Shown here piece after piece: positions 30,992 to 61,760 of a DNA stretch of 64,000 nucleotides (the first letter of the stretch is position 1; every line of letters starts with the position of its first letter). Below the pieces are notes generated by a model. It saw only the letters and a list, made by a program, of their open reading frames with translations. It was not told the origin of the DNA and made no database searches. The stretch comes from Siderastrea siderea (Eukaryota > Cnidaria > Anthozoa > Scleractinia > Rhizangiidae). The stretch lies in NCBI GenBank assembly GCA_964030785.1, contig OZ034975.1, positions 21,631,142 through 21,695,141 of the forward strand, written 5' to 3'. Both the position numbers and the translations under genes were made by a program.

Positions 30992-31698
30992 ATGAGCACA
31001 ACTTATCTTCCATATAAAATTGCACTGACTGATGGTCAGAAAAAGAAACTTCAAAAAGCTTATATTTCGAAGACAGCTGTTACCCTGAGAGTTAAACCAG
31101 GCCAAATTGGACGCGGTGACGAACTACTTCTCACTGCTACTCAAATCTCGCGACTGAAGAAAACCTCAGCGGCAGGTAAAGGAATGGAAATAAAATTAAG
31201 CCAAACTCAGATTCAAAATACTGCGCAGCGTGGTGGAAGTTTGTTTTCTGCTATGCTAGGTTTGGCACGACCTTTGATAAAGCCAACCCTTGGGGCATTG
31301 GCAAGCGCAGGTTTGAGTTTCGGCGCTGAAAAGGTGCTGAAAAAGAATTTGGAAAGGGTTTTGGGTCGAAGGAAATTGAGCTTTATAAACTTGTCCAGAA
31401 AATGACTCCTACTCAGAAAAAGGAGGCAGAACAATACCTTGTTGGTCAAGGTTTTGTACAGGGAGGTTCAGCACAATATGGTGGCTTCCTTGGTATGTTG
31501 GCGTCTATCGGAGTACCTTTAGCCCTTGCTTTAGTCCGAAAAATAATCGGAAAAGGTATGCAAACTCAACCACCACCACGCTCACGACAACAACGAGCAC
31601 CACCCCTCCCTCCACCTCCTAAAGGTAAAGGAATGCAAATTCAACCTCCACCTTTTTTCGGAACTTGGGATGATTATTATCATTTGAAAAAAAACTAA
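30992..31698 (+). pseudogene. Membrane-active capsid protein (pVI/pX-like), frameshifted in element 1
   Basis: The intact homologue in element 2 is 236 aa (52805-53515). Here a single-base loss near 31345 shifts the frame, leaving 137- and 98-codon pieces. Features are a Lys/Gln-rich N-terminus, the motif K-L-S-Q-T-Q-I-Q, and a Gly/Ala/Leu-rich amphipathic segment (A-M-L-G-L-A-R-P-L-I-K-P and A-L-A-S-A-G-L-S-F-G). A Pro/Arg-rich tail ends at K-K-N just before the stop. Such proteins are compared with adenovirus pVI/pX, which help disrupt membranes or condense DNA. The 3-prime end contains a slippery A_AAA_AAC heptamer leading into the protease frame. Confidence 0.72.
31689..31698 (+). promoter_or_regulatory. 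Putative -1 frameshift site A_AAA_AAC_TAA (element 1)
   Basis: In the zero frame of the membrane-active protein the last codons are AAA-AAA-AAC-TAA. This gives the canonical X-XXY-YYZ heptamer A-AAA-AAC in the right phase and directly before the stop. A -1 slip continues in the protease frame, which has no ATG. The same ten bases stand at the same place in element 2. I see no strong downstream hairpin by eye. Confidence 0.6.
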
Positions 31699-43970: not shown

Positions 43971-44540
43971 AGGGTGCGTTTCTTTGGGAAAATCCGAAAA
44001 CGGATTTGTGATCCCAGATCATATGGATTCTTCGACACCAAAGAAACGCAAAATCCGAAAAAGGATTATTTTGTCATGAAAAGACAGGCTGGAGGCACGC
44101 AATATATATGTCAGAACGATATTTCTCTCGTACTGCCCAAGAATTCAACTAGAATGGAATACAAATAATTTATAAATAAGGACAGTATCTGCAGTAGTTC
44201 AAGTGAACTCGCTATTTGCGTTCACAGTTAGCAAAATCTGGTCCCTGAATTACAGAAATGGTACACCAGTGAAGTTATCCTGACGTGTCAATGCTTCTGT
44301 GTGTACTTTTGGAGAAAACTTTTCAAATATACGGAACGGAATAATCACCTGAATTTTCTTTTTCACGATCGAATGTTTTGTCACGCAAGACCGAGAGAAA
44401 ATATCGTGACACGAGTAAATTTGCATGGAAGACCGCTTGACAGATGTACTATTTTCGGATCCGTCCCCCAAAGAAACGTACGGATCATGAATCCTAAAAA
44501 TCTGGATTTAGATTTGATCTGATGTATCCACTCGGAGTGT
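43971..44540. mobile_element. Left part of a host MITE-like element split by Polinton 2
   Basis: Begins AGGGTGCGTTTCTTTGGG; its inverted counterpart CCCAAAGAAACGCACCCT ends at 61760, beyond element 2. Both flanks also contain AAAGAAACGCAAAATCCG and repeated CGGATT/AATCCG motifs. One element of about 690 bp interrupted by the Polinton is the simplest reading; two neighbouring copies are possible. Confidence 0.55.
44536..44540. other. Target-site duplication AGTGT, left of element 2
   Basis: AGTGT directly precedes AGTAGTATATCAAG and recurs at 61639-61643 right after the other terminus. The next outer bases differ, so the duplication is 5 bp. Confidence 0.85.
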
Positions 44541-44722
44541 AGTAGTATATCAAGAGTCAGACAAATACCACCTGATTCTCAGCGGCTTATTTTCTAATTT
44601 TAAAACCCCCACCATTATAAACAAGCTCCCTTTGCTCGCTTGTTTATTATGTGGGAGTTTTAAAATTAGAAAATAAACCGCTGAGAATCAGGTAGTATTT
44701 GTCTGACTCTTGATATACTACT
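44541..44722. repeat. Left terminal repeat of element 2, 182-bp palindrome
   Basis: AGTAGTATATCAAGAGTCAG at the outer end is mirrored by CTGACTCTTGATATACTACT at 44703-44722. The palindrome has the same length and loop (CTCCCTTTGCTCG) as in element 1. The outermost bases have changed in both arms together, so the arms have been kept matched. Confidence 0.93.
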
Positions 44723-44854
44723 TATTAACCGAAATAAACCACCCAGCATAAAAAAAGAAGAAAAGATTAAAACGAAAACATAACCGAACACACACACACA
44801 CACCAAAAAAAAATTTATAATCGATTAAATATTTGTGAGTCAAATTTGATATCG

Positions 44855-45208: not shown

Positions 45209-45346
45209 GTTGTGTTTACGGCGCGTGACTTCGCGGTCCGGTGAAACCCACAGACAATAACGTAATTTATATTCTTGTACAAATATTGAAGGGAAACCCC
45301 CGTAACAACTCAAGCTTGAAAAAACAAATCAATATACACAGACAGA

Positions 45347-45676
45347 TTACATTAATTCATAATCAAAATATTCATTACCGTCAGCAGAAGTTTTGAGACC
45401 TATTTTGTAGACAAATTGATAATAATCATCTTCCAACAAGTCTTCTGTAAGTCGTTTAGGGGCCCACACACAAAACTCATCTCCATTCTTTTTTTCTAAA
45501 GTTAAAATAGCTGAATCCCCAAATTTACCTTTCCTGTGTTTAACTTTTTTGATTTTGTAAATAGCGTCTGAAATATCCCGCCATTTTAAAATTTCTTTTC
45601 TTTCAAAACTTTCCTCTGTTGGCCAGTCTTGTGAGATCGTTTCTTGATCTGTACAGACATCCATAGTAAGATACAT
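45347..45676 (-). CDS. Conserved 109-aa Polinton protein, element 2
   Basis: Nearly identical to 23632-23961 (about six substitutions), open and same length. It retains V-W-A-P-K-R-L and the C-terminal N-E-Y-F-D-Y-E-L-M. This is among the best-conserved genes between the two elements, which argues for function in the parental lineage. Function not recognised; an OB-fold-like beta protein is possible. Confidence 0.75.
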   Translation of the reverse strand: MYLTMDVCTDQETISQDWPTEESFERKEILKWRDISDAIYKIKKVKHRKGKFGDSAILTLEKKNGDEFCVWAPKRLTEDLLEDDYYQFVYKIGLKTSADGNEYFDYELM

Positions 45677-45887
45677 TGAAGATACATTCGTTTACTAGCG
45701 TGTACTTTTCTGCTCCAGGTGAAATTCTGTGAAGCGCATGCGTAAATATCCAATTGTTGCGACATTTAGGTGAAGGACAGAAAAAGGGTACCATAAGAAA
45801 TAGAAGAAGAAAAGTGTGTGTAATATATAGTGAAAGTGATTAATATATATTCGTTTAGTGGGGTGATAGTTGGCCATTATCTGAACC

Positions 45888-46015
45888 ATGACCGCGGTTT
45901 CCAAGGAAATGCCTCCTGACAACGGCGGTCATAAAATGACCGCGGTTTCCAAGGAAATGTCTCCTGACAACGGCGGTCATAAAATGACCGCGGTTTCCAA
46001 GGAGATTCAGCCTCT
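45888..46015. repeat. Three 48-bp tandem repeats with internal inverted ATGACCGC
   Basis: Units start at 45888, 45936 and 45984. Each opens with ATGACCGCGGTTTCC and ends with GGCGGTCATAAA, so each can fold through ATGACCGC/GCGGTCAT. The period is a multiple of three and one frame reads a 16-residue repeat beginning M-T-A-V-S-K-E-M, but there is no convincing gene. The array replaces the GC-rich leader of element 1. Confidence 0.8.
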
Positions 46016-46033
46016 TGACAACATACTGTTAAC

Positions 46034-46176
46034 AGGGGGTGCTCAGAAATCCCTCGGGATTTCAAACCTCGCTCCCACAGGTAAAATGTGGAATGGACAA
46101 CCGCCTTGTCAGCGATGAGATCCTCACTTCGGTGAGGTGAAAGTCCTAGCCGAGGCTAGGCAAGAACAACCACCGC
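46034..46176 (+). ncRNA. Structured-RNA candidate, element 2 version (closing stem lost)
   Basis: Counterpart of 24294-24443. The hairpins AAATCC-ctcg-GGATTT, GACAA-ccgcc-TTGTC, CCTCAC-ttcg-GTGAGG and CCTAGC-cgag-GCTAGG are all preserved, while single-stranded linkers differ at several positions. The second hairpin is weakened, but a nearby CCACA/TGTGG pairing becomes possible. A deletion removes the 3-prime strand of the closing stem, so this copy is probably not functional. Confidence 0.4.
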
Positions 46177-46387
46177 GCAGGAAAAATCGTATTATGGAAC
46201 CACATCTAGTCCTGAAATGGGGTAGCCATCTTTATCACGAGCTGGTAACAATATTTTTGAAACACACTCACGAGTAATGAATCTTATTTGCAAAATTTCG
46301 GGGGGTGTGAGAAGCTCAACTAGGTGTTAGCAAATAGCTTGCAAAATTGCAATCATTTTTGAAAGCGTATATAATTACTTTGAAAAT

Positions 46388-46873
46388 CTACAATTGAGCG
46401 AATGCTTTTTCATACTTGTTAGAAATAGATAGCGGAATTTCCATACAATGATCAGTGACGAAATTATCTATCATTTTCAATCTATCAAGAAAGACCTTCT
46501 CGTCGAAAGCTTCGCCTTTGAGGTAAAAGCGAATCTCATCAAGGATTTTTTGGTATTCGATACGGGCAAAATTTGCTTGTTCTGTTTTCGTATCGTATTT
46601 CTTAAGGCTTGCCACTGTTTTTAAAAGAAGACCAACACCAGTTAAAGTTGCCATGACAACTGGGTTCAACGTAATTCCTCCGGCTACTGCGGCACTAATA
46701 ATTAACTTGCCAGCTGAAAGATTACAAACAAAATTTTTTCTTCGAAAACCGCGGTACAGCTTTTCATAGCCATAATGTTTCTTGTGGTAATAAGCATATA
46801 AATCTTTCATTTTTTTAACTTTCTCTTTGGAAAGTGTTTGGTCGATATGGTTGAATTCGAAAATGTTCCGCAT
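46388..46873 (-). CDS. Polinton membrane protein (161 aa)
   Basis: Starts M-R-N-I-F-E-F-N-H with a basic, Tyr-rich N-terminal helix region (L-Y-A-Y-Y-H-K-K). A hydrophobic Gly-rich segment follows at about residues 53-85 (A-G-K-L-I-I-S-A-A-V-A-G-G and L-N-P-V-V-M-A-T-L-T-G), then a helical C-terminal half. I have the impression that similar proteins occur in cnidarian genomes in Polinton contexts, with no assigned function. The hydrophobic part could insert in a membrane. Element 1 has lost that half by deletion. Confidence 0.68.
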   Translation of the reverse strand: MRNIFEFNHIDQTLSKEKVKKMKDLYAYYHKKHYGYEKLYRGFRRKNFVCNLSAGKLIISAAVAGGITLNPVVMATLTGVGLLLKTVASLKKYDTKTEQANFARIEYQKILDEIRFYLKGEAFDEKVFLDRLKMIDNFVTDHCMEIPLSISNKYEKAFAQL

Positions 46874-46879
46874 TGTGCT

Positions 46880-47134
46880 ATATAATATGAAAAAATGTTT
46901 ATGGTACTATATATTCAAATAACATTAGAAGGAGTTCATTTATTCCTGATGAAGACAGTTCAATATACAGTGAACAACAAGAATCAAATTTAAGATTAAC
47001 ATTAATTGTCTGTATTCTAGATATATCAGTTGAATGATAAACTTTCTTTACAGGAGTAAATGTTATACCATCTAAATCTATTTTAATATTTTCTTTTGGA
47101 AAAAAGAATATTGAAATAGAAATAGGTGCAAATA
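46880..47134 (-). pseudogene. Out-of-frame C-terminal end of the fibre gene
   Basis: Beyond the stop at 47135 the minus-strand sequence still resembles the last 75-80 codons of the element 1 fibre (compare around 25060-25300) but in another frame. The shift is at or near a run of nine T on the plus strand at about 47138-47146. The head domain is therefore truncated in this copy. Confidence 0.55.
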
Positions 47135-48703
47135 TTATTTTTTTTTGCTTACATGCATTATTTTTATATTTGTTATTATATCATCCTGATTCATTATTAT
47201 TTGACTACAACCATATAACGAAAAAATTTTTTTACCTTGTGTTGCATCTAAAATTCCATTTATGTAATGAACGGAACCACGCAAACGATGACTGTTTAAA
47301 GAAAGATCTGTTTGCATTACCACTTTTCCATTTTCAATAACAAAAGCGGTGTCATAGACACTTGGATCAACGTTTGAAATGGTTTCTTTAACACCATAAA
47401 CAATTAAATGACCAATTGTTAAAAATGATGGATTACTGACTGTACCGTGCAGATCGAGATATAGGTATTGTGGGGGTGAGCTACCCCATCTATGAAAATT
47501 GATAACTGTTTTGGTGTACTTCTCGAATGTTTTGGTTGTATGATTAGAAATTGAAATCGTCGTTGCTTGCGGTGTTACACTTACCTCATTCATTTCTGGA
47601 GGAAACCATTCTACAACCATTGTGTAATAACCGACCGGAAGTTTATATAAGTTAAAACCGAGGCGGGACTGGTACTGGTTGGGTGAGCCTTTTTCAAACA
47701 GGAGTTTGAGAGAGTACGCTTTTTTATTTATTTGATGTGGAGATTCAGAAAAATCTCTGATGCCCAAAACCTCGATATTATTTTCACTCGAAGATTCATC
47801 AGTGTCTTCCATCAAGTATCTGAAGGCGTCCCTTTTTTGTCCCGAGTTAGTGATATGAGATTCATGAATTTCTTGACTGACAAGATCTCTCATAGATGTT
47901 ATTTCATTTTGCATAAAATCAACATTAACTGCGGATTTCGAATCTTTGTAATCGGTTTGTAAGTTAACAATTTTATTATGATTTAAATTTAAGTCTCCAG
48001 TCATTCTGTTAGAGCCATCAAATTTGAGATAAATTTTTTGTGTTTCACTAAGTCTCTTATTGACAAACTCCACACTTGTGGTGTATTTTTGGTTTGATGG
48101 AAATTTGAGATTTACAATCGAATTATTTTTCATATCAATATCAGCTCCCTTATCCAATTTTTTCACAAGCTGATTATCGACATACTTTTTGTTTGTGGCT
48201 TGATCTGCCTGTGCTGGGTCTTTTACGTTGTAGATTGTATTATTGTTCATATCAATGCTTGCTTCCATTTTTCCGCCTTCCTTTTTTGAAAGAAAGATAT
48301 TTCTCGTGTCCTGATAGTTTATTACCTTTGTCAGATCACCGTGGACAGGATAAGGGTTGCTTTTTAATCGCAAAATATCGTATTTATTTTGCACGTCAAT
48401 ATTAGCAGAACCGCTGGCACTACCCTGAGGTCCACGATCACCTTTTTCACCTTTATCACCTTTGTCGCCTTTGTCGCCTTTTAAACCTTGTGCTCCTTGT
48501 ACCCCCTCCTGACCTTGTGGTCCAGCGGGCCCTTTTTCACCTCTTGGACCATTAGGACCTTGTGGTCCTGCTGGGCCTTTGTCACCCTTCGGTCCAGGAG
48601 GACCCTCGGGGCCAGGAGGACCCCCTGGGCCAGGAGGACCCACTTTTCCACTTTCACTCGTCGTTTGGTTAGTTCCACCTATTTGACTGTTAATATACCC
48701 CAT
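47135..48703 (-). CDS. Collagen-like / tail-fibre-like spike protein (522 aa)
   Basis: The ATG at 48701-48703 overlaps the ATPase stop as TAATG. Residues about 22-97 are a Gly-X-Y run ([10 protein letters not shown] and many G-D-K) that should form a collagen triple helix. Residues about 115-250 hold three degenerate repeats of the [11 protein letters not shown] type with A-T-N-K-K-Y-V-D, as in phage tail fibres. The rest is a beta-rich head whose last 75-80 residues are lost by frameshift. Probably a trimeric vertex spike for attachment, by architecture. The collagen part is intact here but broken in element 1. Confidence 0.82.
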
Positions 48704-49335
48704 TATATATCTTCATCAAAATTTTTTTTCATTAATTTTAAGGGTTTGTCATAGTAAAAGAAAGAATATTTTTTATCGGTGGTGCGATCTAAAACGTCAT
48801 GATTCACACCTATCTCGTCTGCAATCCGTTTGTTTTCTCTTGGAAGAACTCTGAAAATACAAAAATGGCTGCAGTTATCACGGGTGTTTTTCGGCACCTT
48901 GTAGAAGGTTTGAGTGAGGTAAATAACACAGCAGTTTGTGTGCCGCCCGTTGATAAAATAATTAATGATGCTGTTTTGGTTGCTTTCACAAACAAGATCA
49001 TCAAAAACAACTATTTTTTGGTTGTCCAGCGGAAGCTCTTCGAGCGGAATGATTTCATCACCATGAGCCTCAATAACCTCATAACCAACCTTGGGGTTGA
49101 TTTGTTCTGCAAAGTCCTGCAAAAGATTCTGGTATTTGTTCTGGTGCAGGTTTTTTGAAAAGAGGTAGATTTTATCAAACTCCAACAAAAAATAAATCAT
49201 ATTCATTAATATGTTTGTTCTGCCAGAATTACTGGGTCCACAAATTAGCATTCGAAAAACATCTGCTGGCATGCAAGGGTGGCCTTGTTTGTATTTACTC
49301 TTGGAAGAACCTTGGTCAAAATTTACAAAGTTCAT
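48703..49335 (-). CDS. ATP: Packaging ATPase, Walker A Lys changed to Arg
   Basis: A 210-residue homologue of 26810-27454, start at 49335 (M-N-F-V-N-F-D-Q-G). Walker B (K-I-V-V-F-D-D-L-V) and the Y-L-T-Q-T-F block are unchanged. The Walker A loop reads G-P-S-N-S-G-R-T-N: the invariant Lys is Arg, from a single AAA to AGA change. In P-loop ATPases this normally abolishes hydrolysis. One extra base in a T run also alters the last residues compared with element 1. Likely a dead enzyme in an open frame. Confidence 0.88.
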
Positions 49336-49369
49336 TTTTTTGTTGTTGTTATATATCAACGCTGGAAAA
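49336..49369. promoter_or_regulatory. Divergent promoter, element 2
   Basis: 34 bp between the ATPase and coiled-coil start codons, containing TTATATATCAACG. It is the counterpart of 27455-27489. Confidence 0.5.
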
Positions 49370-49565
49370 ATGTCAATAAAAAATTGGCATCAGTTGGCTG
49401 AAGAAAAATCGAAGCTCGATAAACAAACAGAAGAAATTCACCAAAAATTCAGAATGGATAAAATTAACAAAGAGTTTGGTCAGCTTTCAGGGGAGGAGCT
49501 TTTTAAACCAATTACAAAAAGGCTTGATGAAAAGAGCAGCGACAATGTAGAAGAAGAAAAAGAAG

Positions 49566-49596
<31 letters not shown>

Positions 49597-50287
49597 TCCT
49601 GATGAATCCAGATCGGATGCATCACCACCCGCATGTCAAGAATTCGATGATCCGGGATCTTCCAAAGATGAAACAAAGGAAGAAACATCAAAACGGCTTA
49701 GAACTGTAAAAAGTATTCTTGCCAAATATGGAAGTGACCCAACTTACAAAGTAAAAAGTAAAGGATCTAAATACTATGGATATAATGTGGAAAGACTAAA
49801 AGCTGAGGCATTTAATCTCGAAACAATTAAGGCAAACCAAGAACAAGCAGAAAGGTTACGTAAAAGGACACAAAGGCGACGTTGAAACCACCTGAAAAAC
49901 AAGAAGCAGAAAAGTTACTTGAAAGGACACAATTTTCATCAAAACAATTAGAAGAACAAAAGAAGAAATTAAAAACAACTAAAAAACTAGAAAAAAGAGA
50001 AATTCCTCTAACCCCTTAGGAAAAAGCTGTCAAGAACCGAAGACCTGCTTTTGAACTTTCTGACAATGAAGATGACTCTTCTGAACAGGATTGGGAAACC
50101 GAAGGAAGCGGCATCGCTGATGAAGCTGAAAAATTGATTGACCAACTTCATTTGAGTTTAGGATCGATAAAAGCAGGAAATAGCTTAATAAAACTAAAAA
50201 ATCAGGTATTATATCTGCTTGATTCACTTGTTGAACTCGGCACAAGCAATAAAAAGGAAAAGAAAAAAATTATTTCTAATTATATAA
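49370..50287 (+). pseudogene. Coiled-coil Polinton protein, disrupted
   Basis: Start at the ATG at 49370. The first 171 codons follow element 1 but lack most of the Pro/Thr-rich block and have an expanded acidic run (E-E-E-E-E). The frame ends early at 49883-49885 after R-T-Q-R-R-R. Downstream coding similarity resumes in another frame, with an in-frame TAG near 50018, and includes the conserved C-terminal L-G-S-I-K-A-G-N motif. Confidence 0.7.
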
Positions 50288-50293
50288 AACAAT

Positions 50294-51055
50294 AATGAGC
50301 TTTGATATTCTGCTTGACTCGAGCCTTGCAAAACTTGAAAGAGGTGGAGAACGGAATGTTTCACACGATTTTACAGTGAAGTTTTACCCCCTATCGAGTT
50401 GGGTTCAGGAAAATATAAAGCTGCGCTAAACAGACTTATCACAATGAGTTACTCATGGAACAACATTGATTCTCGTTATGATAACAACAAAATTCGCTGG
50501 AAGAAAAAAACAGAACAAGCGTGGAAGACCTTAACTTTCCCGAATGGAATGTATGATTACAAAAGAATCAACACATTTATTCAGCAACACACCGGTAAAG
50601 TAGACCCGACAAACAAAGACAGTAATTACATTTTCACAATATATTTCGATATGTCAATTTATAGGGTTGTGACTTTGATACATAACGATTATGAGCTTGA
50701 CTTGTCTCAAGGAAATTTTGGTGAATTGCTTGGTTATGGCAAAAGTACCTTGAGTGGAGATGTTGTTGGAAGAGAAGTTCCAAATATCACAAGAGGTGTT
50801 GATTGGGTATATTTGCACTGCGATCTTATCTCACGCCGAACAAACAATGTTTCAAGCGATGTGTTATACAGTTTCTCAACATCAGATCTTCGGGTTAGCT
50901 ATCCATTTCGAAAAGAGCCGCGTCGACTTGAGTGGTAACCTGTGAATAAAAGTTATATTAATGAAATAAGGGTTTGGGTGACAGATGGAAGAAACAATAT
51001 CCTGGATCTCAACGGGACAGACATTGCAATTAGCTTAATGATTGAAAAAGAGTAA
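50294..51055 (+). pseudogene. Minor capsid (penton-like) protein, disrupted
   Basis: Homologue of 28484-29245. One C is missing near 50388, shifting the frame after about 32 codons, and a CAA codon has become TAA at about 50937. The long middle frame (50399-50938) otherwise matches element 1 closely. The C-terminal segment is unchanged but out of reach. Confidence 0.75.
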
Positions 51056-51082
51056 GGTTTTTGTTGGTATAAATATACAATC

Positions 51083-51455
51083 ATGAATCATCCGAGCGAG
51101 TGGGCAAGATACTTTGATGAAAACACCGGAAGTTATCGATATAAACACAAAGGGTCGGGTGTGACACCTTCATGACCATCGGTAAAGTATTCAAAAACAA
51201 TGTAAAGAACGTGGCAAAAAAACTGCCGAAAAAGCCACAAATACAATCGCTGAAAAAGCGGGTCAGAGAGTTGGTGAACTTGCTGTTGAAAAAGGTTCGC
51301 AACAAATACGAAAAATACTGCAAGAGCGAAAAAAACAAAAATCGTTGTCTCAGGATGCAAAAAAGAAACTTACAAATATTTTGCAAAGCCAAGTGCCAAA
51401 AAAATCAGATGAGGCCCTTGTGAAATTAAATCGAATTTTGGCAAACGAAATTTAA
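51083..51455 (+). pseudogene. Small basic virion protein, disrupted
   Basis: Starts like 29273-29647 (M-N-H-P-S-E-W-A-R). A 7-bp deletion near 51163 and a 1-bp deletion near 51217 shift the frame. Downstream Lys-rich codons are still recognisable in the other frames. Confidence 0.7.
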
Positions 51456-51498
51456 TTAAAGAAATTTTTTTCTGTTAAGATAATAAGCTCTTGCTAAC

Positions 51499-52758
51499 AT
51501 GTTCAGAAGTCAACCATACCTCGAAAATACTAAATACGTTCAAATTAATTTGCACACCCCGCTCACCTTCCCTGGGAGTAACCAAACTCAAAACAAGTTA
51601 AACCACAAATTTACCGTAAGAGACCGGGACAATTTTTATGACTGGTACAACGCTTATTTCCGCGTCGATTTTAAGTTTGAAGCTAAAGCAAACGGAGCCA
51701 ACATTGGTGCTGACACCGAATCAGCTCCGATCAACGGTTCTTTCTCATTGATCAAAAGTTTGAAACTGAGTTCATCTGGAAAAGAATTGTACTATGCAAA
51801 TGATATCCACAAAGGTGTTTTCATCAAAAATCTGCTTGATTTTTCAGACGATTTTTCGAGAAGCGTGGCAAAAAACCAGTTTTGGTATCTTGATAATGAC
51901 GCCACCACAGCGACTGATAATAATGCAACGAACCTTGGAATGCGAGTAAGAGCGCTTCTATCACACGAAGGTTTGATAGTTAAGACTATTATCCCTTTGA
52001 ACAGATACTCCTTCTTCGAAAGTCTTTCCGACAGGCTACTGCCGCCGTTAAAACTTGAGATTGAAATTAATCTGCAAAAAGACGAAGAAATGATTTTCCA
52101 AAACGATGAAACAGCTCGAAGAATTGTTGTCCGTAAATTTGAGTTGTGGGTCCCACAATTACATTTCACTGGTAAAGGACAGACCCAGGCCAATGAAAAT
52201 GTCTTGAAACCAACCCAATGGAAATACCTGAATGAAGATTTGCAAAGCAGCAGCTCCCGAAGGGATGCGGACGGTATTTGGTTGATTACACCTGGGGTAA
52301 AAGATCCCAAACATGTTTTTGTATTTTTTCAACAAACTCGGAAACAAAACGCTTACACACAAAACCCTTATATCTTTGACACGTTTGATATCGATGGTGA
52401 TGACTCAGCAAGATTGGACACTTGCCGCCTTCAATACGGCACAAAATTTTACCCTGAGCTTGATTACGACCATGATATTAAAATAAGAATTTTGAATGAT
52501 TTGATCAATTTCCGATACAGAAAGAACGACTACAACACCGGCGTTCAGCTGCAGCTTTCCAATTTTGAGAAGTTGTACCCAATTATCTACTTTGACCTAC
52601 GAAACACCGAAAGTGTGACAGGCGACTCGAAAAAGCTCGAATTCCATTACAGACTAAATGAAGCCGCTAACGCTCAAGATTATATAATCTTCGCCTTGAT
52701 TTTGAGTGAAAAAGAATTCGTGCTGAAGCAAATTGGTAATGAGCTTGTCGTCGTCTAG
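51499..52758 (+). CDS. Major capsid protein (double jelly-roll), 419 aa, element 2
   Basis: Open homologue of 29688-30953. F-Y-D-W-Y-N-A-Y-F-R-V-D-F, I-P-L-N-R-Y-S-F-F-E and E-L-W-V-P-Q-L-H-F are retained. Substitutions are spread through predicted loops, with two single-codon length differences. Being intact in both elements, it is one of the better-preserved genes here, consistent with its role as the main shell protein. Confidence 0.82.
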   Translation: MFRSQPYLENTKYVQINLHTPLTFPGSNQTQNKLNHKFTVRDRDNFYDWYNAYFRVDFKFEAKANGANIGADTESAPINGSFSLIKSLKLSSSGKELYYANDIHKGVFIKNLLDFSDDFSRSVAKNQFWYLDNDATTATDNNATNLGMRVRALLSHEGLIVKTIIPLNRYSFFESLSDRLLPPLKLEIEINLQKDEEMIFQNDETARRIVVRKFELWVPQLHFTGKGQTQANENVLKPTQWKYLNEDLQSSSSRRDADGIWLITPGVKDPKHVFVFFQQTRKQNAYTQNPYIFDTFDIDGDDSARLDTCRLQYGTKFYPELDYDHDIKIRILNDLINFRYRKNDYNTGVQLQLSNFEKLYPIIYFDLRNTESVTGDSKKLEFHYRLNEAANAQDYIIFALILSEKEFVLKQIGNELVVV

Positions 52759-52804
52759 ACAAATGAAAAATTAAAAAAAATTCTGAATATAATATACACG
52801 CACG

Positions 52805-53515
52805 ATGAGCACAACTTATCTTCCATATAAAATTGCACTTACTGATGGTCAGAAAAAGAAACTTCAAAAAGCTTATGTTTCGAAGACAGCTGTTACTCTG
52901 AGAGTTAAACCAGGTCAAATTGGGCGCGGTGACGAACCTCTTCTCACTGCTACTCAAATCTCGCGACTGAAAAAACCCTCAGCGGCAGGTAAAGGAATGG
53001 AAATAAAATTAAGCCAGACACAGATTCAAAATACTGCGCAGCGTGGTGGAAGTTTGTTTTCTACTATGCTTGGTTTGGCACGACCTTTGATAAAGCCAGC
53101 TCTTGGGGCATTAGCAAGTGCAGGTTTGAGTTTCGGCGCTGAAAAGGTGCTGAAAAAGATATTCGGAAAGGGTTTTGGGCCGAAGGAAATTGAGCTTTAT
53201 AAACTTGTCCAGCAAATGACTCCTACTCAGTTAAAGGCGGCAGAACAATATCTTGTTGGAAAAGGTTTAGTAAAAGGAGGCGGTGCACAATACGGCGGCT
53301 TCCTTGGTATGTTGGCGTCTATCGGGGTACCTTTAGCCATTGATTTAGTTCGAAAAATAATGGGAAAAGGTATGCAAACACAACCACCACCACCACGCTC
53401 ACGACAACGACGAACACCACCTTTACTACCACCTCCTATAGGTAAAGGAATGCAAATTCAACCTCCACCTTTTTTCGGAACTTGGGATGATTATTATCAT
53501 TTGAAAAAAAACTAA
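52805..53515 (+). CDS. Membrane-active capsid protein (pVI/pX-like), 236 aa
   Basis: Intact here. Basic N-terminus (K-I-A-L-T-D-G-Q-K-K-K-L), then T-L-R-V-K-P-G-Q-I-G and K-L-S-Q-T-Q-I-Q near residue 70. An amphipathic Gly/Ala/Leu segment lies at about 90-120, a second hydrophobic segment (G-M-L-A-S-I-G-V-P-L-A-I-D-L) near 165, and a Pro-rich tail after that. TGAATATAATATACA lies just upstream. The last codons form the A_AAA_AAC slippery site before TAA, from which the protease frame can be reached. Comparison with adenovirus pVI/pX is by composition and position only. Confidence 0.75.
   Translation: MSTTYLPYKIALTDGQKKKLQKAYVSKTAVTLRVKPGQIGRGDEPLLTATQISRLKKPSAAGKGMEIKLSQTQIQNTAQRGGSLFSTMLGLARPLIKPALGALASAGLSFGAEKVLKKIFGKGFGPKEIELYKLVQQMTPTQLKAAEQYLVGKGLVKGGGAQYGGFLGMLASIGVPLAIDLVRKIMGKGMQTQPPPPRSRQRRTPPLLPPPIGKGMQIQPPPFFGTWDDYYHLKKN
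53506..53515 (+). promoter_or_regulatory. Putative -1 frameshift site A_AAA_AAC_TAA (element 2)
   Basis: AAC is at 53510-53512 and TAA at 53513-53515 in the frame of the 236-aa gene, with A-AAA directly before. A -1 slip restarts reading at 53512 in the protease frame, which stays open to 53958. Since both genes are intact in this element, the arrangement can be read directly without allowing for mutations. Confidence 0.68.
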
Positions 53516-53958
53516 CATTTGAAGATAAACCACTATCCAACATTGACCTGAGAAAATGGTGCAACTTTTTACGAATTCCAATAAAAGATATTTTTAGCAG
53601 AAATGAAACAAAACCCTTGTTTCATTCTCCATGCATTATCAACTTGGATGATTTTGGAAGATTGGGAACTCATTGGGTATGTTGTTGGCCTGCCAAAGAT
53701 AAAGATACTTACGAGTATTTCGATTCATTTGGTTTTCCACCACCTTTGGAATGGGAACAAGAAATGTCAATGCACGGGATGACACATTTTTTCAGAAATG
53801 ATAACCAAATTCAATGGGAACAAAGTGTGAGATGTGGTTATTACTGCCTTCTCTTTTTAAACGAAAGAAATAAAGGAACAAGTTTTGCCGATATTTTGAA
53901 AATGTTCTCCAACGATTTACTTCAAAACGAGGAAATAGTGAAAAATTATTTTTCTTAA
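53512..53958 (+). CDS. PRO: Adenain-like cysteine protease, ATG-less, entered by -1 frameshift
   Basis: About 148 codons. The His box (G-T-H-W-V-C-C-W), acidic residue (Y-F-D-S-F-G), a Gln (W-E-Q-S-V) and the Cys box (R-C-G-Y-Y-C) are all in one frame. There is no ATG before the conserved core (the TTG at 53617 falls inside it) and no TATA-like box upstream, unlike every other gene in this block. The frame opens exactly at the slippery site of the preceding gene. Expression as a C-terminal extension of the membrane-active capsid protein is therefore proposed. Role: maturation cleavage of virion precursors. Confidence 0.85.
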   Translation, partial: LTFEDKPLSNIDLRKWCNFLRIPIKDIFSRNETKPLFHSPCIINLDDFGRLGTHWVCCWPAKDKDTYEYFDSFGFPPPLEWEQEMSMHGMTHFFRNDNQIQWEQSVRCGYYCLLFLNERNKGTSFADILKMFSNDLLQNEEIVKNYFS

Positions 53959-53972
53959 AATATATATATATA

Positions 53973-55043
53973 ATGGAAGTGCACTGTGTGAAAAATAGCG
54001 GCACACGCCCAATGTGCAGGGACGTGAAAAGGTTGTAATCACAAAGAACAATCGAAAACTCTTGAAAGCAAAATGCGCTAGTTGCGGAATAACAAAAACA
54101 CGTTTTATGCCGGGAAACTAGGTGAGCCCTCCCGCACGGAGGGCAGTGGTATATTTGGCGATGTTGCTATGGCAGTTGGTGATCTTGCTATTACAAAAGG
54201 AATCCCATATCTTGCGAAAAAAGTCTTGAAGCTGGACGATATTACGCTTCTGAAGCTATGAGAGACCCCAAACTGCAAAAGAAAGCAATAAATTACACGC
54301 TGAACAAAGCCCGCCCAGTCATTCAAAAAGTTGGAAGTGAAATGTTAGATCAACTTTCAACTAAAATTCGACCAAACCAACGTTACAAAACTGACAGACC
54401 TGATTTGGATGGAGCTGGGTTGATATACATGCAGCAACTGGAAAATTTCCGAAACCAAAAAAAGGTTAGACATTACCAGGGCATAATTACACAGGGCCAT
54501 ACAATCCTCTTGAAAAACAGGTGAAATACGATCCAGAAACGGGTGAAATTCTGGAAATATATCAACCACCAACAGGTGCAACAGATGCGATTGCTATGCA
54601 ACATTATGATGTTTGTTCCAACCGTGAAAAAAAAATACGGTGAGAATCTCAAAAAATGCAAACACAAAGCGGATAAAAAAATGGTGAAGTCTCTTGACGC
54701 AGTTCCTTACAAACAGAGGCAGTGGGGTCATGCGGCTGCAAGAAATGCAATCAATGCTGAACAAAAGTTAGGGTTGGGTTTGAAACAACAAAAAGGGACT
54801 GGTGTTTTGGATAAACCATTGGAAGTAGTGAAATTTGCTGAAACTTTGACAAAAAAAATTATTCCTTCCACAAAACCTGTTTTCGATCGGTATTGGAAAG
54901 GTGATATTGCGAAAAATGCTTTCACAGGTACAACTGGTGTCACAAGCAAGAAATTTTGAACTCATCCAAAAAAAGGTACTGTCATGCGTTTGGTGAAAAA
55001 TCCGAAAACAGGCAAATATGAAAATGTCTATGAAGAACCTTGA
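53973..55043 (+). pseudogene. Zinc-ribbon plus PLA2-like protein, disrupted (element 2)
   Basis: Homologue of 32150-33229. The first frame shifts early (near 53991), although the C-A-S-C-G-I-T-K-T-R-F codons and the G_GGA_AAC_TAG site survive. Later lesions are a lost A near 54215, a lost T near 54419, a nonsense codon near 54467, a 9-bp deletion at the H-D-V-D-Y-D catalytic motif near 54603, an extra A near 54636 and a nonsense codon near 54958. Confidence 0.7.
54112..54144 (+). promoter_or_regulatory. Putative -1 frameshift site G_GGA_AAC_TAG with perfect hairpin
   Basis: GGGAAAC at 54112-54118 is followed by TAG at 54119-54121. After the 7-nt spacer TAGGTGA, GCCCTCC (54126-54132) pairs perfectly with GGAGGGC (54138-54144) around CGCAC. 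Heptamer, spacer and 7-bp GC-rich stem match a textbook retroviral-type -1 site. Element 1 has the same arrangement with one mismatch in the stem. Confidence 0.68.
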
Positions 55044-55583
55044 TTATTTGACCACCACTTTTCAAACTCCTGTTTTGCGCGCCGCCTGCTTGCTAAGGTT
55101 TTAGGAAGGTGATGAGAAATAGATTCCATAATTTCTTTTTTGTTGGGCCAGAATTCAGAAGGTACCATTTCAAAATAATTGTGCAGAAAACAGGTGTAGT
55201 TTACTGAATTGTCGGTTATCTCTTGAAATTGAGCAATAACCTTACTTAGAAAAACGACCTCGCTGGAAGAAAACACTTTGTCAATGTTACATTTCCGTAA
55301 AACATCTTTTAAATGAGCATTATTCGTTGGAAGAGCAGTGGAACTTATTCCCCGAGTTTCTTCTTGAAACTGTTTATAATCATCACATTCAAACACTCTA
55401 CAACATTTTGGACATACACGACATAACTCATTCACCACATAAACTATTTGCTCCTCGCATGAAGGACAACGATTAATCTTTTTTGATAACAGGCTTATTT
55501 CATTTCTGTTTTTTTTGCCAGATTTCTTGAATCATTTTCAAAGAAATGTTCACACCTTGCAAACAACCAAACGGGTCGTCCAT
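55028..55583 (-). pseudogene. Zinc-ribbon protein, disrupted
   Basis: Homologue of 33214-33780, with the start codon preserved at 55583 (M-D-D-P-F-G-C). The first 45 codons contain at least one frameshift. From 55438 leftward the frame matches element 1 again, including C-R-V-C-P-K-C and the basic Trp-rich C-terminus. Confidence 0.68.
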
Positions 55584-55606
55584 TTTTTTATTGTGTATGG
55601 TATACA

Positions 55607-56608
55607 ATGAGCTCGCGTATTTTCACTAAGTTGTCAAAAATTTATTACAGCCCGCAAGGGTATTGGAACGGGTTTGCAGCAATTAAGAAATTAGCCCAGG
55701 CAGCGAAAGTTTCGGAAGATGTGGCTCAAAACTGGTTGATCAAGCAAGCTCTTTGGCAGGTTTATTTACCAGCCCCACGGTACATTCCAAGGCCGAAATT
55801 TGATGTTCCTGTTCCAAACAAAGTTCACCAAGCCGATGTTCTGTATCTCCCACACGATCGCCCACCACGCTCCCGTAAAACTTTTAAATATGCCCTCACA
55901 GTTGTAGATGTGGCCTCTCGATACAAAGAGGCCGAACCGTTGACCACAAAAGAGGCTAAAGAAGTTGCAGCTGCTCTGGAGCGGATTTATAGTCGTGGTC
56001 CTTTAAAGTGGCCGAAACTGCTTCAAGTCGATCCTGGTCGTGAGTTTATGGGCGCTGTGAATCAACTGCTTTCGAAACATAATGTCGAGGTTAGACGCGG
56101 CCGTGTGGATATTCACTGTGATCAAGCTATCGTTGAAAGATTCAACCGCAACCTGGCTGAACGACTGTTTGGACACCAATATGGGGTTGAAATGCGCCTC
56201 CCAGAAGACAAAAGATCGACTGAATGGGTGGCCCGACTGCCTGCTGTTATTTCAGCTTTGAATAAAGAAGTCACTCGACTGACTGGTCAAAAACCTGTTG
56301 ATGCCATCAAAGAAAAAACTGTTCCATCCAAACCCTCGACACCTTATTTGAGACCTGTTGGTGTGAACGAAAAAAAGCTCCCCTCCGGTTCAAGTGTTCG
56401 CTATCTCTATCAACCCGGTGAACTTGAAGGTGGTCGACGAAGAGCTACCGACCCAATCTGGTCTTTGAATGTTTACGAGATTGAAAAGATTATGATAAAA
56501 CCAGACGAACCGGTTATCTATTATTTATTTGACGGACCAAAACGTTGGTTTGTCCGCGAAGAGCTTTTGGTTGTCCCTCCAGATACACAACTACCACCAG
56601 CAAGCTAA
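55607..56608 (+). CDS. INT: Retroviral-type integrase (RVE), 333 aa, element 2
   Basis: Intact homologue of 33802-34809; same start context (GTATACAATGAG). The acid triad is kept (Q-A-D-V-L-Y-L, Q-V-D-P-G-R-E-F, I-V-E-R-F-N-R) and so is the C-terminal SH3/chromo-like module. It ends 4 bp into the polymerase gene on the other strand. This copy could still be catalytically competent, as nothing in the sequence breaks it. Confidence 0.95.
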   Translation: MSSRIFTKLSKIYYSPQGYWNGFAAIKKLAQAAKVSEDVAQNWLIKQALWQVYLPAPRYIPRPKFDVPVPNKVHQADVLYLPHDRPPRSRKTFKYALTVVDVASRYKEAEPLTTKEAKEVAAALERIYSRGPLKWPKLLQVDPGREFMGAVNQLLSKHNVEVRRGRVDIHCDQAIVERFNRNLAERLFGHQYGVEMRLPEDKRSTEWVARLPAVISALNKEVTRLTGQKPVDAIKEKTVPSKPSTPYLRPVGVNEKKLPSGSSVRYLYQPGELEGGRRRATDPIWSLNVYEIEKIMIKPDEPVIYYLFDGPKRWFVREELLVVPPDTQLPPAS

Positions 56609-59600
56609 CAATGAAACTCGATCGGTTCTGTGTGAATGCCGTCTTCCAATACCCAGCGTTTGTCGTAGTAAGCGCTCAACCCTAGCTTCTGCTGTTCGTA
56701 AGTGACCATCTGCCCGTCCCGCATCCTGAAACCTCTATTAGTTGCTATGTCCTTGCTGCTTTCCAAAGCTTTCTTGAAACGCTGCCACGTGATCTCGTTT
56801 TGTTTCTTCGACACCCCTTTTGTGCTGAACTTCTTTTTTTCACCCTCAGATTCGTCGACGAAATAACATTTTGAGCAGAGTGCAATCATTCTGCTGCCTT
56901 CACACTCGAGTTTAAAGAGTCCAGGGGTCCGACTGCTCCACTTGTCCCAAGCTAACCACTCTTGCTTTTTTGCCTCAAATTCTGTCTGCAGCTCTGGTTT
57001 GACGATGTCTTCCAACTTTTCTGCGCTGATTGCCATGTAATTGCTGTCTGTGTCCATCTGAATCAATTCGAAATCTCCTGTCAAAATACCTGTCAAGAAA
57101 GTCATAATAGAATTCAAGCATTCGAAGTTTAGCCAGTTGATATACAGCTATTCCTACCTGAAATGGTCTTCTGATTGTGATCCGAGGCTTTCGGCTTTCC
57201 AGCTCATACGCCTGCCCGATCTCATCAAGATCACTGAAATATGCACTTCGCAAGGCTCTGTCGACTACCTTCTCGTCGTTGGTGTAAATGGTGTTTGTTT
57301 GCCGCTCCAAGGCTTCGATGAGCTTCCCGTACCCACTATTTCCCAACAGCTTGAGTACCTCAGCCAGCAGCGCCTTGCTTTTTTCTTTATCTCCAGTTCT
57401 ACGAGCTTCAGTAACTTGCTCCACAAACCAAGTGAATATTTTTGTTGGTTGGTAGTCAATAGTCCGATAAACATTTGTGATCACTGCTCCATGCTCAAGA
57501 TACCATCTAAGTAGTGGAGCGTATAATAATATCTTCTTTGCAGACAATGCTCCCACTAACTTCTTTCCGTCTCCGCGGTTCCGCTTCGTGTGTTTTAGAT
57601 AGTCAAGCATATGTTGCGGCACAGCTTCAACAGGGACCTCTTTGTTGTAGAAGAACGGGCACATTTCCTCAAACTTTGGGTGTAAGTGCTCAGGGATCTC
57701 TATATCAACTTCTGCAAATCCGAACCATTTTTCTTCTTTGAGCCTTTTTGTCAGTATGGGAGCGGCGGCTTCGTTATTGTAATGCACGACCCTTCCGTTT
57801 CCACAAGGCATGTCTCTAAGCATGGTTGACAAATACAAAGCATTGGCGTCGTAACCCACTATATTTTTGCAAAGACGGGGTTCCGCTATTCGATGAGACC
57901 TTATCTTCGTGACTCCAACTTCATGGTATCTTGTGAAAACAAGACTGGGACCGCCGACAACAGCTTTTTTTCAACATCTCATACGCTTCTTTGCACGGGC
58001 TGCAAAGATCCGCGCCCCTCTCAACACATCCGCGGAGTAAGTAATGTAAACTAACACCTGGGATACTGACAGCATCTTTCAAAATATCGATTCCTTTATC
58101 AGTGTAGAAAGCACGCATCTTTTCCAGAGACTCGAGGCCAGGAGCTACATCGAGATTATTGTAGTAACGCAGCCAGTCTGCGAAGGTACACATCCCCTTT
58201 TCTTTGAACAGACGCTGGCACCCATCCCATTCATCCCGCGTGAGAACATAACCGCCCTTCAGCTTCGAATACCAATCCTCATATTTCGGAAGTCCGCGAA
58301 AATCAAGTTTTTCAGGTGTGTCAAACCATTCATACGGAAACCGCGATTTTATAGTTTCGCATTCGTAGGCTTTCACCCATTTCTCATAACTTGTACCCGG
58401 ACCTAAGTAGTTTATGATGTCGAGAAAACGAAAGTTTTTAGTCAAAATGAACATAATTTTGTTCCCATTTTTTGCAACTCTTACTTTACCAGTTGTATCA
58501 GATAAACGTTCCGCGAAATGTTCTCTGATAAGATTCAAATCATATCGCCCGGAGTTAAACCGATTTTTACTTTTCGTTGTAATCTGCAGTGCAACAAAGA
58601 ACAAAGAAACCAGATAAAAATCACGAAGCAATGAATAACGCATTACTTTGAATATATTAGCATCTACTTGCCAACTGTGAATTTGTAACGCAACCTTCTC
58701 CGTCGGTTCATACATCCTCTTTAACTTTAAATCTAAAAGTGTTCCAGTGAATCAATGTTAATAAGACTCAAAACTAAAATTGGTCACATCGTCAAGCACG
58801 CATGTTCAATGTTTAAAAAAAATCTATCGAGCCGTTCTTAAGATTTTCGCAAAAGCGCTCAAAATAAAAAATTACCACAAAATTATTACGCGAATGATCT
58901 TAGAAAAACAAGTCGTTCGCGAGATCGCGAACACCAGTTTCAACAAAACTTTCTAGGCGTAAAATAGTAAGTAAAAGACACATTTTAACAGTATTTACTA
59001 GCCATTTCATCAAAGCGTTGATTATTTTTCAGTGCATTTACTCTTACTAGGCAAAAACTAAGGTTGAAAATGTTTTTGTGATTTACTTCAAAACAAACAG
59101 ACAGAATTTTTTTGTTCTTGTATATTTTGTTTGCCATACACCACAGTTTAAGACACTGGTATTCTCTTTTCGAAGCGAAAGCTGGATCGTGCAAAATTTC
59201 AATTTTACTGTTTTCGAGGATTTTTGTTTATCGTTGTCATGGAAATATCGACTTTTACAAAGTGTAAACCACGCTAAAGTTCAATCCAAAACCAACAAGT
59301 ATTGCAAATTTCACGTTGATCTGACAAGGAGAAGACTGTCTAAGAGCCGATTCAAAAAGTTAGGTATGGTCCCAAAAAAACTGTATCGAAACACCTTAAT
59401 ATTTATTTCTCCTACTTCACAAGACCATTCCTCGATTACATGGTAGCCAGCAGCTCAAAGCTTTTGTGTACGTTCAACAGTTGCTTTAAATCTATCTTCT
59501 CGTGTTTGATCATGATGAGTAATAATTCTATTTCGATTATAAGGATAACATTTTCGGCATCCATGCCAGTGACCCGGGATATTGAAAAACAGTCTTCGTT

Positions 59601-61010
59601 TCATGGTTATAACCGTCTACAGGAGCGCGCTCAACCCATCTTTCACCTCCATGCCCGCAAGCAGCGTGGTGAATATGAATTTTACGAAGTGCTGCTTCTT
59701 GTTCAAGCCAGCGAAGAGATTCTGAAGAAGATGAATGTTTTGGATAAAAAGCTTTCTCAAAAGCTGTTTGTGGTAATTCAACTCTTTCTGCCGGACAATC
59801 AATAACCGTTTTTCCTTGTGAACATGTTTGGATATGCCGTTGAAGGTTGCAAGCTTTAGTAAATCTTGAACGACAATGAACACACGCATAAGTTTTTGCA
59901 AGCTTCGTAATATCTTTTATAACGAAAGCATGCCCTTCGTAAATTCCAATTGTCAAAATATTTGTTAATTTGGCTGGTGGTTTCCTTCTAAGATGCCATA
60001 CCACTTCACCATCCTCCATACGTTCAGGCTCATATACACAGATTCCCAACCAATCTTTGAAATTTTGTTTTTTATTAAGATGTTTTTCAACCTCATCAAG
60101 TTCATCTAAAGATGTTTTTCGGCAATCTTTTGGAGTAGCTTTGAGATTGAAGAAACTCTTAGCAAGTTCCCGTACTGCCGTTGTACTTCGATCTGGTCTT
60201 GAACCGCAGTGTACCGCAATACAGCGCCAAAGACATAAATTGTCTTTGTATTTGTCTAAAGCCAGCATATAACGATTATGCGCAAGGTTACGCAGCCAAT
60301 CTGGTAATGGTCCTGTACCTAAAAGTGGCTGACGGTCAAGAACGACCTTTACATCAACATTAAATTGGTTTTCAAACACCCATTTTGTGTCCGGTCTATT
60401 TATGTTGTCGGGGTCCAGACGTACTTTTTCCCGCTTACTCAACCATTTCTCCGCATCAAAAAAACGTTCAAACCAAGGCGAACCTCTGTTAGTGTACATC
60501 ACCATTGACAAATCGTCTTCAATGTTGCGTAGCTGATCTGAAAAAATATGTCTAGCATAAAAAGATGTATGAACTTTATCTCGTATTTTTGTCATAAAAT
60601 CGGATGTTAAATCTCTTTCAAGGTCTCGAATGGAGCGCCATCGAATGAAACGGCGCCCTCTTACCTCATCTCCTTCATGTTCGGTATTATCATATAAATC
60701 AAGAATTTCATTCTGATAGTTTGTAACATTTCGGATATTTTCTCGAGAAATTGGATCAAACTTCCTCAAAATTTCTTGTGTTTTTCTCCCCCCTCTATTA
60801 CGAGGAGGGGCAGTCGGTTGAAAAGTTTTAGGAATTAAAGGTTTATTTAAACTCTTCTCCACTTTCTCAGAAATAGGTTCATCCAATATGTTCTGAATAG
60901 TTTTTCGAACAGCAGGAGCATCCTCTGCAAGGTAATTGCTCTAACGCTTGTAACGTTGCTGGATCAAGTTCTTTCAAAAGTCCTTCAATGTTTATGTTAA
61001 GTACAGACAT
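56605..61010 (-). pseudogene. POLB: Protein-primed DNA polymerase B, multiply disrupted, with replaced segment
   Basis: Same domain order as in element 1 from the ATG at 61010. Lesions include an extra G near 60933, a 2-bp loss near 59573, replacement of the Exo I region by 834 bp of unrelated DNA (58561-59394), an extra T near 57968 and a 2-bp loss near 57076. Motif A (Y-D-A-N-A-L-Y), motif B (G-N-S-G-Y-G) and motif C (D-T-D-S) are still readable in separate frames. The natural stop TAG at 56605-56607 is intact, showing the true C-terminus. Confidence 0.92.
58561..59394. other. Unrelated 834-bp segment inside the polymerase pseudogene
   Basis: The sequence leaves the polymerase reading immediately after TTAAAC (58560) and returns at TTAATATTTATTTC (59395). 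In element 1 these two points are about 343 bp apart. The insert is AT-rich host-like DNA with no terminal inverted repeat or target duplication that I can see. It therefore looks like a repair-type replacement and not a transposon. Confidence 0.75.
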
Positions 61011-61107
61011 TGCAACTTGGATATAACAAAGATGTGTATTTCTCTAACTGGAAAAAAATTTTTTTTTGTATGTGTGATTCTATAATTGAAAAAATTTTTA
61101 AAATGTT

Positions 61108-61362
61108 TCATTTTATTTTGATTGGTGATCGAATGTTAAGCTCTGATCCCAATGCAATTTTCGTTATTACTGTCACAGATAATATAAACAATCCTGCATA
61201 AAAGAGATATTGAAGCATCAGATGAGTGTTTGCTTCAATAAATACTAAAACTGTGCAAAAGTTAGTAATAAATGTTGGACCATAAACATAACAGCTCAAT
61301 AGTCCAAAAGCAGACCAAATAAACAGATTTATAGTGAAGGGACTAAGACGACAACTTGCCAT
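61108..61362 (-). CDS. Small two-TM membrane protein (84 aa), element 2
   Basis: Homologue of 38821-39087 with the same hydrophobic segments and few substitutions. The C-terminus is four residues shorter because of a deletion. It lies between the polymerase start and the right terminal repeat. Confidence 0.7.
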   Translation of the reverse strand: MASCRLSPFTINLFIWSAFGLLSCYVYGPTFITNFCTVLVFIEANTHLMLQYLFYAGLFILSVTVITKIALGSELNIRSPIKIK

Positions 61363-61456
61363 TGTGTTATTTTCAATATATTTAATTCTTCAAATGTTTG
61401 TAAATTATCTCACGTTTTTCTTCTTTTTTATGCTGGGTGGTTTATTTCGGTTAATA

Positions 61457-61638
61457 AGTGGTATATCAAGAGTCAGACAAATACTACCTGATTCTCAGCG
61501 GTTTATTTTCTAATTTTAAAACTCCCACATAATAAACAAGCGAGCAAAGGGAGCTTGTTTATTAAGGTGGGGGTTTTAAAATTAGAAAATAAACCGCTGA
61601 GAATCAGGTGGTATTTGTCTGACTCTTGATATACTACT
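61457..61638. repeat. Right terminal repeat of element 2, palindromic
   Basis: Inverted copy of 44541-44722. One arm starts AGTGGTATATCAAG (an A-to-G change relative to the other arm). AGTGT follows at 61639. Confidence 0.92.
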
Positions 61639-61760
61639 AGTGTGGATTCTTCAGATCACTAATCCGTGATTAATCCATTTTCGGATTTAGGTAAAGAAAC
61701 GCAAAATCCGTTTTTGGGTACAAGAATCCGGATTTGGATTTTCCCAAAGAAACGCACCCT
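61639..61760. mobile_element. Right part of the host MITE-like element split by Polinton 2
   Basis: Starts with the AGTGT duplication and ends CCCAAAGAAACGCACCCT, the inverted counterpart of 43971-43988. It contains repeated AATCCG motifs as in the left part. Confidence 0.55.

Follow-up and report, generated by a model that had tools for sequence, protein, structure and literature searches.

A putative -1 frameshift on A_AAA_AAC may append an adenain-type protease to a capsid-associated protein in a Polinton of Siderastrea siderea

The gag-pro frameshift site of MMTV is the slippery heptamer A_AAA_AAC, at which a protease is joined to a structural protein. In adenovirus, a cofactor peptide derived from pVI is cleaved and then binds the protease adenain, for which the cleavage consensus is [MIL]xGxG. 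Intact vertebrate Mavericks carry PRO among their conserved intronless ORFs, as listed in excerpts of PMC8097293 and PMC4028283. For adintoviruses, an excerpt of a 2024 preprint (PMC11071296) gives -1 signals predicted close to where Penton ends and ascribes a "similar relationship" to potential Hexon-Adenain ("Hexain") fusions. Among the matches listed in our literature searches, we found no paper on a frameshift between core protein and protease in Polintons, and the excerpts of PMC8097293, PMC4028283, PMC5803895 and PMC12567637 describe none. The original prediction for the locus analyzed here, that this arrangement had not been described for Polintons, is nearly right: the excerpt of PMC11071296 contains potential Hexon-Adenain -1 fusions, which have a different partner.

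We analyzed a window of 64,000 nucleotides from the genome of Siderastrea siderea, in which two elements (1 and 2) carry the junction of interest. Element 2 is assigned to the Polinton/Maverick type because a family B polymerase, an integrase, an A32-type ATPase and a collagen-repeat protein are present; among the hallmarks of such elements, it holds a polymerase of the viral type, an rve integrase, an A32/FtsK ATPase, terminal inverted repeats and an adenovirus-type cysteine protease. Its features are as follows.

44540-61639: element 2, bounded by 225-nt terminal inverted repeats, 96% complementary
44540..44764: terminal inverted repeat at the left end (225 nt; 96% complementarity with its right counterpart)
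61415..61639: right terminal inverted repeat, pairing with the left
47135..48712, minus strand: collagen-repeat (fibre-like) ORF adjoining the packaging ATPase gene (PF01391, E 5.3e-13)
48703..49389, minus strand: genome-packaging ATPase, A32 type (PF04665, E 1.8e-15)
51499..52758, plus strand: 419-aa ORF, putative major capsid protein by position and size
52805..53515, plus strand: 236-aa ORF, putatively capsid-associated (core-protein-like), zero frame
53491..53958, plus strand: protease open frame, -1 relative to the capsid-associated ORF (ORF, profile match)
53506..53512, plus strand: slippery heptamer A_AAA_AAC (sequence reading)
53513..53515, plus strand: zero-frame stop TAA, adjoining the heptamer (sequence reading)
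53973..54038, plus strand: small ORF of 21 aa (MEVHCV...), 3' of the protease (ORF list)
55490..56608, plus strand: retroviral-type integrase (PF00665, E 2.7e-10)
56605..58751, minus strand: DNA polymerase B region in three overlapping frames, broken (PF03175, E 1.8e-11, in 56978-57970)

The 419-aa ORF gave no Pfam or PDB sequence match, and a double jelly-roll fold was not seen in it by sequence; the 236-aa ORF, which is rich in Gly-Lys-Gly and Pro, gave no match in Pfam, nor did the other two of the three polymerase frame pieces. Element 2 appears decayed at polymerase B, yet both its capsid-associated frame and its protease frame remain open. Each terminus also contains an internal inverted repeat (44541-44722 and 61457-61638; 72-nt arms, 38-nt loop, 96%), and by sequence each end could form a long hairpin. 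The small ORF at 53973-54038 is short in element 2; in the protein P0014 a longer counterpart is joined to the protease in one frame, and P0014 carries PF18930.

At the junction, the capsid-associated ORF of element 2 terminates in the codons TTG AAA AAA AAC TAA, as had been predicted. From 53491, directly after a TGA at 53488-53490, the protease frame runs open to its stop TAA at 53956-53958, and following a -1 slip it would be translated from 53512. It was said to lack an ATG before its conserved core, and this is borne out: the only in-frame ATGs lie at 53764, 53770, 53779 and 53902, all four 3' of the GTHW catalytic histidine (codon 53671). The corresponding region of element 1 was likewise read as claimed, with the ten junction bases identical and both genes otherwise broken, since no more than 110 codons of the capsid-associated frame are open ahead of the junction and the protease domain stops after 98 codons.

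30992..31698, plus strand: capsid-associated gene of element 1, frame broken upstream (sequence reading)
31689..31698, plus strand: heptamer A_AAA_AAC and TAA of element 1, -1 phase, the same ten bases as in element 2

The protease gave a weak Pfam match to adenain (C5; E 0.039, below the cutoff), and a profile built from 16 of its relatives matched the solved viral cysteine protease S273R, which we take to be the African swine fever virus enzyme, with E 2e-7, and adenain with only 0.06. Five structure predictions gave a best mean pLDDT of 82, the remaining four scoring 42-45. We analyzed coding constraint by counting alignment columns that vary in at least three copies. For the protease, in two length classes of 46 and 65 copies, these columns are distributed over codon positions 1/2/3 as 11/4/40 and 12/6/43, respectively, and for the capsid-associated gene as 41/29/84 (60 copies); singleton variants in both frames are roughly even across codon positions. 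The third-position excess together with even singletons indicates that both genes were constrained during spread of the family and relaxed after insertion.

To survey the junction, the host genome was searched with the window protease, which gave 150 scored matches from 2878 first-look candidates; 130 of the 150 and element 1 make up a first sample of 131. The first 130 copies were ranked by their similarity to the -1 reading of the window protease and are biased toward -1. Because this ranking favours -1, a second was made with the outside homologue P0042, in which 98 of the top 111 matches, assigned to loci by eye from coordinates, yielded a phase and 12 were left out. The phases -1, +1 and in frame were found 79, 37 and 15 times in the first sample (36, 16 and 4 among the 56 copies with both ORFs intact), and 54, 33 and 11 times in the P0042-ranked list. 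The 40 copies of that list that lie outside the first sample gave 14, 17 and 8 (39 usable; junction L137 was left out, as it could not be anchored). Over all 170 host-genome copies the counts are 93, 54 and 23, with A-run lengths taken as assembled, so that assembly error in the A-runs may affect them. Among the three states -1 is the most frequent, without being universal. A shared heptamer, a missing ATG and a shared -1 phase at related junctions had been named as supporting evidence; the ATG is missing in 161 of these 170 copies, the heptamer is usable in 76 of the 79 -1 copies examined for it, and the phase is not strictly conserved.

The lengths of the junction indicate how the phases are related. 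The -1 form minus one A gives +1, and plus one A gives the in-frame form. Junctions of 55/56/57 nucleotides number 38/71/9, those of 52/53/54 number 10/15/10, those of 58/59 number 2/4 and those of 49/50/51 number 3/3/2, with 45, 46 and 48 seen once each. The -1 lengths (50, 53, 56 and 59) are thus the mode in three length classes and tied in the fourth, and clusters at three-base steps would result from gain and loss of entire codons in a -1 form, followed by changes of single A's. We would read the +1 and in-frame copies as changes in A-run length, mostly after insertion. A sub-lineage with ...AAAGGTGAAATTT at the junction (L112, L123, L135, L136, L138 and L168) occurs both as -1 (A8) and as +1 (A7, four copies); a common ancestor already in the +1 phase may thus lie behind some of the +1 copies.

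A usable in-frame heptamer lies 5' of the stop in 76 of the 79 -1 copies of the first sample (A_AAA_AAC in 58, A_AAA_AAA in 13 and A_AAA_AAG in 5), and it adjoins the stop in 64 of the 79. The other three copies retain the A-run: an upstream nonsense codon is present in L048 and L074, and the stop is lost in L053. A special constraint on the A-run was considered and rejected, as 11 of 24 other Lys columns of the capsid-associated gene are also never AAG. At the junction, the protease frame contains an ATG after its last stop in 9 of the 170 copies and in one of the 93 in the -1 phase; four of the nine derive from the WDD codons, all in +1 copies, and five stand at the first protease codon.

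We also evaluated whether phase is under selection. On a capsid-plus-protease tree of 127 copies (four long-branch tips left out), phase changes at 2.3 per unit on internal and 9.6 on end branches (LR 5.0), and the root state is -1 at 0.97; an earlier rate test on 86 of the first 91 copies, five long-branch tips being left out, gave LR 4.0. On the 127-copy tree, internal and end branches do not differ in rate for length class, which served as a control (LR 0.0). The protease frame breaks only on end branches (LR 6.6); for breaks in the capsid-associated frame the rates on the two branch types are not significantly different (LR 1.7). The difference for phase is gone on a protease-based tree of 151 copies with no tips left out (LR 0.48; root -1 0.62). 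By parsimony, phase clusters no better than in shuffles on the 127-copy tree (179/500 as low), and for 91 copies shuffles were as low in 81/200 for the three states together and in 30/500 for the -1 label. An age trend was rejected, -1 copies being not significantly younger (p 0.21), and -1 is not significantly commoner with both ORFs intact (36/56 vs 43/75, p 0.47). From these comparisons, -1 is likely, but not proven, to be the propagating state.

The main rival to a frameshift is that working elements have one continuous frame and that the -1 and +1 copies are defunct forms left by drift of the A-run. In-frame junctions do exist, in 23 of the 170 copies, in L177 of a second lineage and in the homologues P0146, P0181, P0203, P0010, P0081 and P0088; the fused residues agree with the predicted slip product, and the divergent in-frame copies L155, L156 and L158 form one clade on the 151-copy tree. 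Set against this, the in-frame form is the rarest state in the host genome and is scattered over the trees, as 12 single tips and one pair with 127 copies and as 15 single tips, one pair and one triple with 151. A complete fusion would furthermore leave no free core protein. We regard a direct fusion as unlikely.

The codon that overlaps the stop allows a second alternative to be weighed, in which the protease begins there (CTGA, GTGA or ATGA) by termination-reinitiation or a non-AUG start. Reinitiation would need a start codon at this place, and a residue that is read through would not. In the 93 -1 copies the codon is CTG in 62, GTG in 15, CTA in 11, ATA in three and ATG and CGG in one each, and several distant homologues start with M[KRN]F.D.PL at the equivalent place. 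The abundance of CTG and GTG would suit such a start; the presence of CTA in both window elements (CTAA, hence no AUG stop-start), the ATA and CGG copies and the single ATG speak against it, as do the substitutions, which mostly preserve a hydrophobic residue and the stop and not a start codon. Reinitiation ranks next in probability, and we consider it rather improbable.

Folding of the RNA downstream of the heptamer gave no support for a stimulator. A pseudoknot search had been proposed with the original prediction; the score of a simple pseudoknot was reached by 46 of 60 shuffles. A downstream stem was also rejected as a stimulator, as most shuffles of the 108 nt that begin at 53513 fold better than the native sequence (z +1.44). 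Among 30 -1 copies, the first of 74 with an intact protease and including the window's own, the mean folding z is +0.51, with no predicted stimulatory structure. The site, if ribosomal, would according to these predictions be weak and structure-free. Insertion of an A in the run by RNA polymerase, giving a minority of in-frame mRNAs, needs no RNA structure, and it would suit the runs of 8-9 A that are common at the junction and unstable in length among copies. It is made doubtful by the -1 copies with shorter runs (A6-A7), which still carry the ribosomal heptamer, and by the limited slippage of animal Pol II on such short A-runs; transcriptional slippage is thus, in our view, a poor candidate.

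A separate or spliced protease mRNA, with a leader that supplies the start, would be insensitive to the phase of the A-run and in this respect fits the variability of phase. Here, the 80 bases upstream of four points in element 2 were searched for TATA. According to the original claim, a TATA-like box precedes the other plus-strand genes and the protease has none. A TATA is indeed found upstream of the capsid-associated gene (-17 and -12) and of the small gene at 53973 (-12 to -4), the 51499 capsid-like gene has none in its 80 bases, and the protease has a single, distant one at -76. This sole TATA and the missing ATG argue against an own transcript, as do the intronless ORFs described for intact vertebrate Mavericks in the part of PMC8097293 cited; cis-splicing was set aside on inspection of the junction sequence by eye only. 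We rate an own transcript as very improbable. The ATG in the WDD codons is lost in 83 of the 170 copies, including 52 of the 93 in the -1 phase, and only four of the 170 retain it in an open protease frame. That this ATG, in the +1 frame, was the ancestral start and that the whole family is defunct at its protease gene seems the least probable reading of all, since, despite the apparent use of a +1 overlap with ATG by the lineage of P0041-P0053 (deduced from its proteins), the protease was constrained during family spread with the ATG largely gone.

The comparison with a frameshift layout extends to a second Polinton lineage of the host genome, which is distant from the first. When this genome was searched with P0118 (48% identity to the window protease), six matches stood at 58-63% identity to P0118 and the others at about 47-51%.

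G000 C1:29026819, C1:30180011, C1:28937005, C5:37113133, C9:44709985 and C1:30734806: second-lineage loci (P0118 search)

Four of the six junctions were read (L174-L177). L176 is -1 on A_AAA_AAC, followed by AAC TAA; L174 and L175 are +1, and L177 is in frame, so that one of four is at -1. A protease-frame ATG after the last stop is lacking in L174, L175 and L176. From these junctions, an ATG-less layout linked by an A-run and an unstable phase are common to both lineages. The ATG-less protease frame, in 161 of 170 junctions and recurring in the second lineage, is, as far as sequences can tell, more than chance.

Elsewhere the arrangement differs. Among the best 120 matches of each protein search, drawn from gene callers that normally require a start codon, there are in-frame fusions (P0146, P0181, P0203, P0010, P0081, P0088 and others; P0146 has 379 aa and 90 cluster members) and proteases that start with ATG (P0024, P0032, P0041-P0044, P0069 and others), and the arrangement thus does not hold across the protease family. 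In another lineage, core proteins end in SW[DG]D.KK[AT]xLR in 10 of 13 other matches (P0244-P0253) and several proteases of P0041-P0053 start with MTKKKPxFVDV or MIKKKPxF; these ends and starts, known from the proteins, appear to agree with an overlap fixed at +1 that includes an ATG. Viral contigs yielded no related loci for A1, P0030, P0118, P0069 and P0126. Prokaryote contigs yielded three remote loci in two MAGs (L091-L093), and in the two that were read (L091 and L092) the protease has its own ATG. An in-frame ATG or a continuous frame in homologues had been named as evidence against the frameshift; where they occur in other lineages they count against a frameshift in those, but not in the window family.

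We propose, tentatively and with somewhat less than an even chance of being right, that the protease is synthesized solely as an extension at the C-terminus of the capsid-associated protein, likely by a -1 slip on A_AAA_AAC. A few of the ribosomes that complete the core protein would slip back one base on the heptamer and add the protease; the slip would be ribosomal or, less likely, arise from transcriptional insertion of one A, and its efficiency would be low. The original view of the protease as a minor fusion fits the lack of a usable ATG, the -1 phase, the heptamer abutting the stop, the three-base length steps and the second lineage; strict phase conservation, a stimulatory structure and generality among homologues are not supported.

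With still less confidence, we suggest that a structure-free poly-A site appends an adenain-type protease to a minority of core molecules and thereby sets both dose and packaging. The 236-aa protein would then have a role in the particle, and the core protein would deliver the protease into it, followed by self-release. The core protein contains three adenain-like [MIL]xGxG motifs, a number reached in 13.7% of shuffles; these sites are suggestive only, being compatible with self-cleavage and not above composition. Within this Gag-Pro-like reading, the same anatomy in the second, distant lineage would make the layout old or repeatedly arisen. If the protease is indeed a low-dose slippage product, an adenovirus-related DNA-virus lineage and retroviruses would have reached the same solution, and annotation that depends on ATG would overlook the protease of such elements or cut it short.

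Compared with retroviral Gag-Pro, the junction likewise places the protease in the -1 frame behind a structural protein and A_AAA_AAC near the stop, but here the host element is a DNA transposon, the protease is a cysteine protease, no pseudoknot is predicted and the stop is directly adjacent. Polintons/Mavericks with an independent protease gene share the polymerase B, the integrase, the ATPase, the capsid block and PRO, whereas the protease described here has no start codon. The adintovirus Hexain, as presented in the excerpt of PMC11071296, is alike in its protease type, in a -1 signal that fuses a virion protein to adenain and in belonging to Polinton-related viruses; it differs in that its partner is hexon and its signals are KnotInFrame predictions, whereas in the present case the protease would join a small core-like protein, predictions give no structure downstream of the site and the comparison covers many genomic copies. 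Finally, as with adenain and pVI of adenovirus, the protease would be functionally tied to the C-terminus of a core protein, with the difference that the link would be covalent and made through translation.
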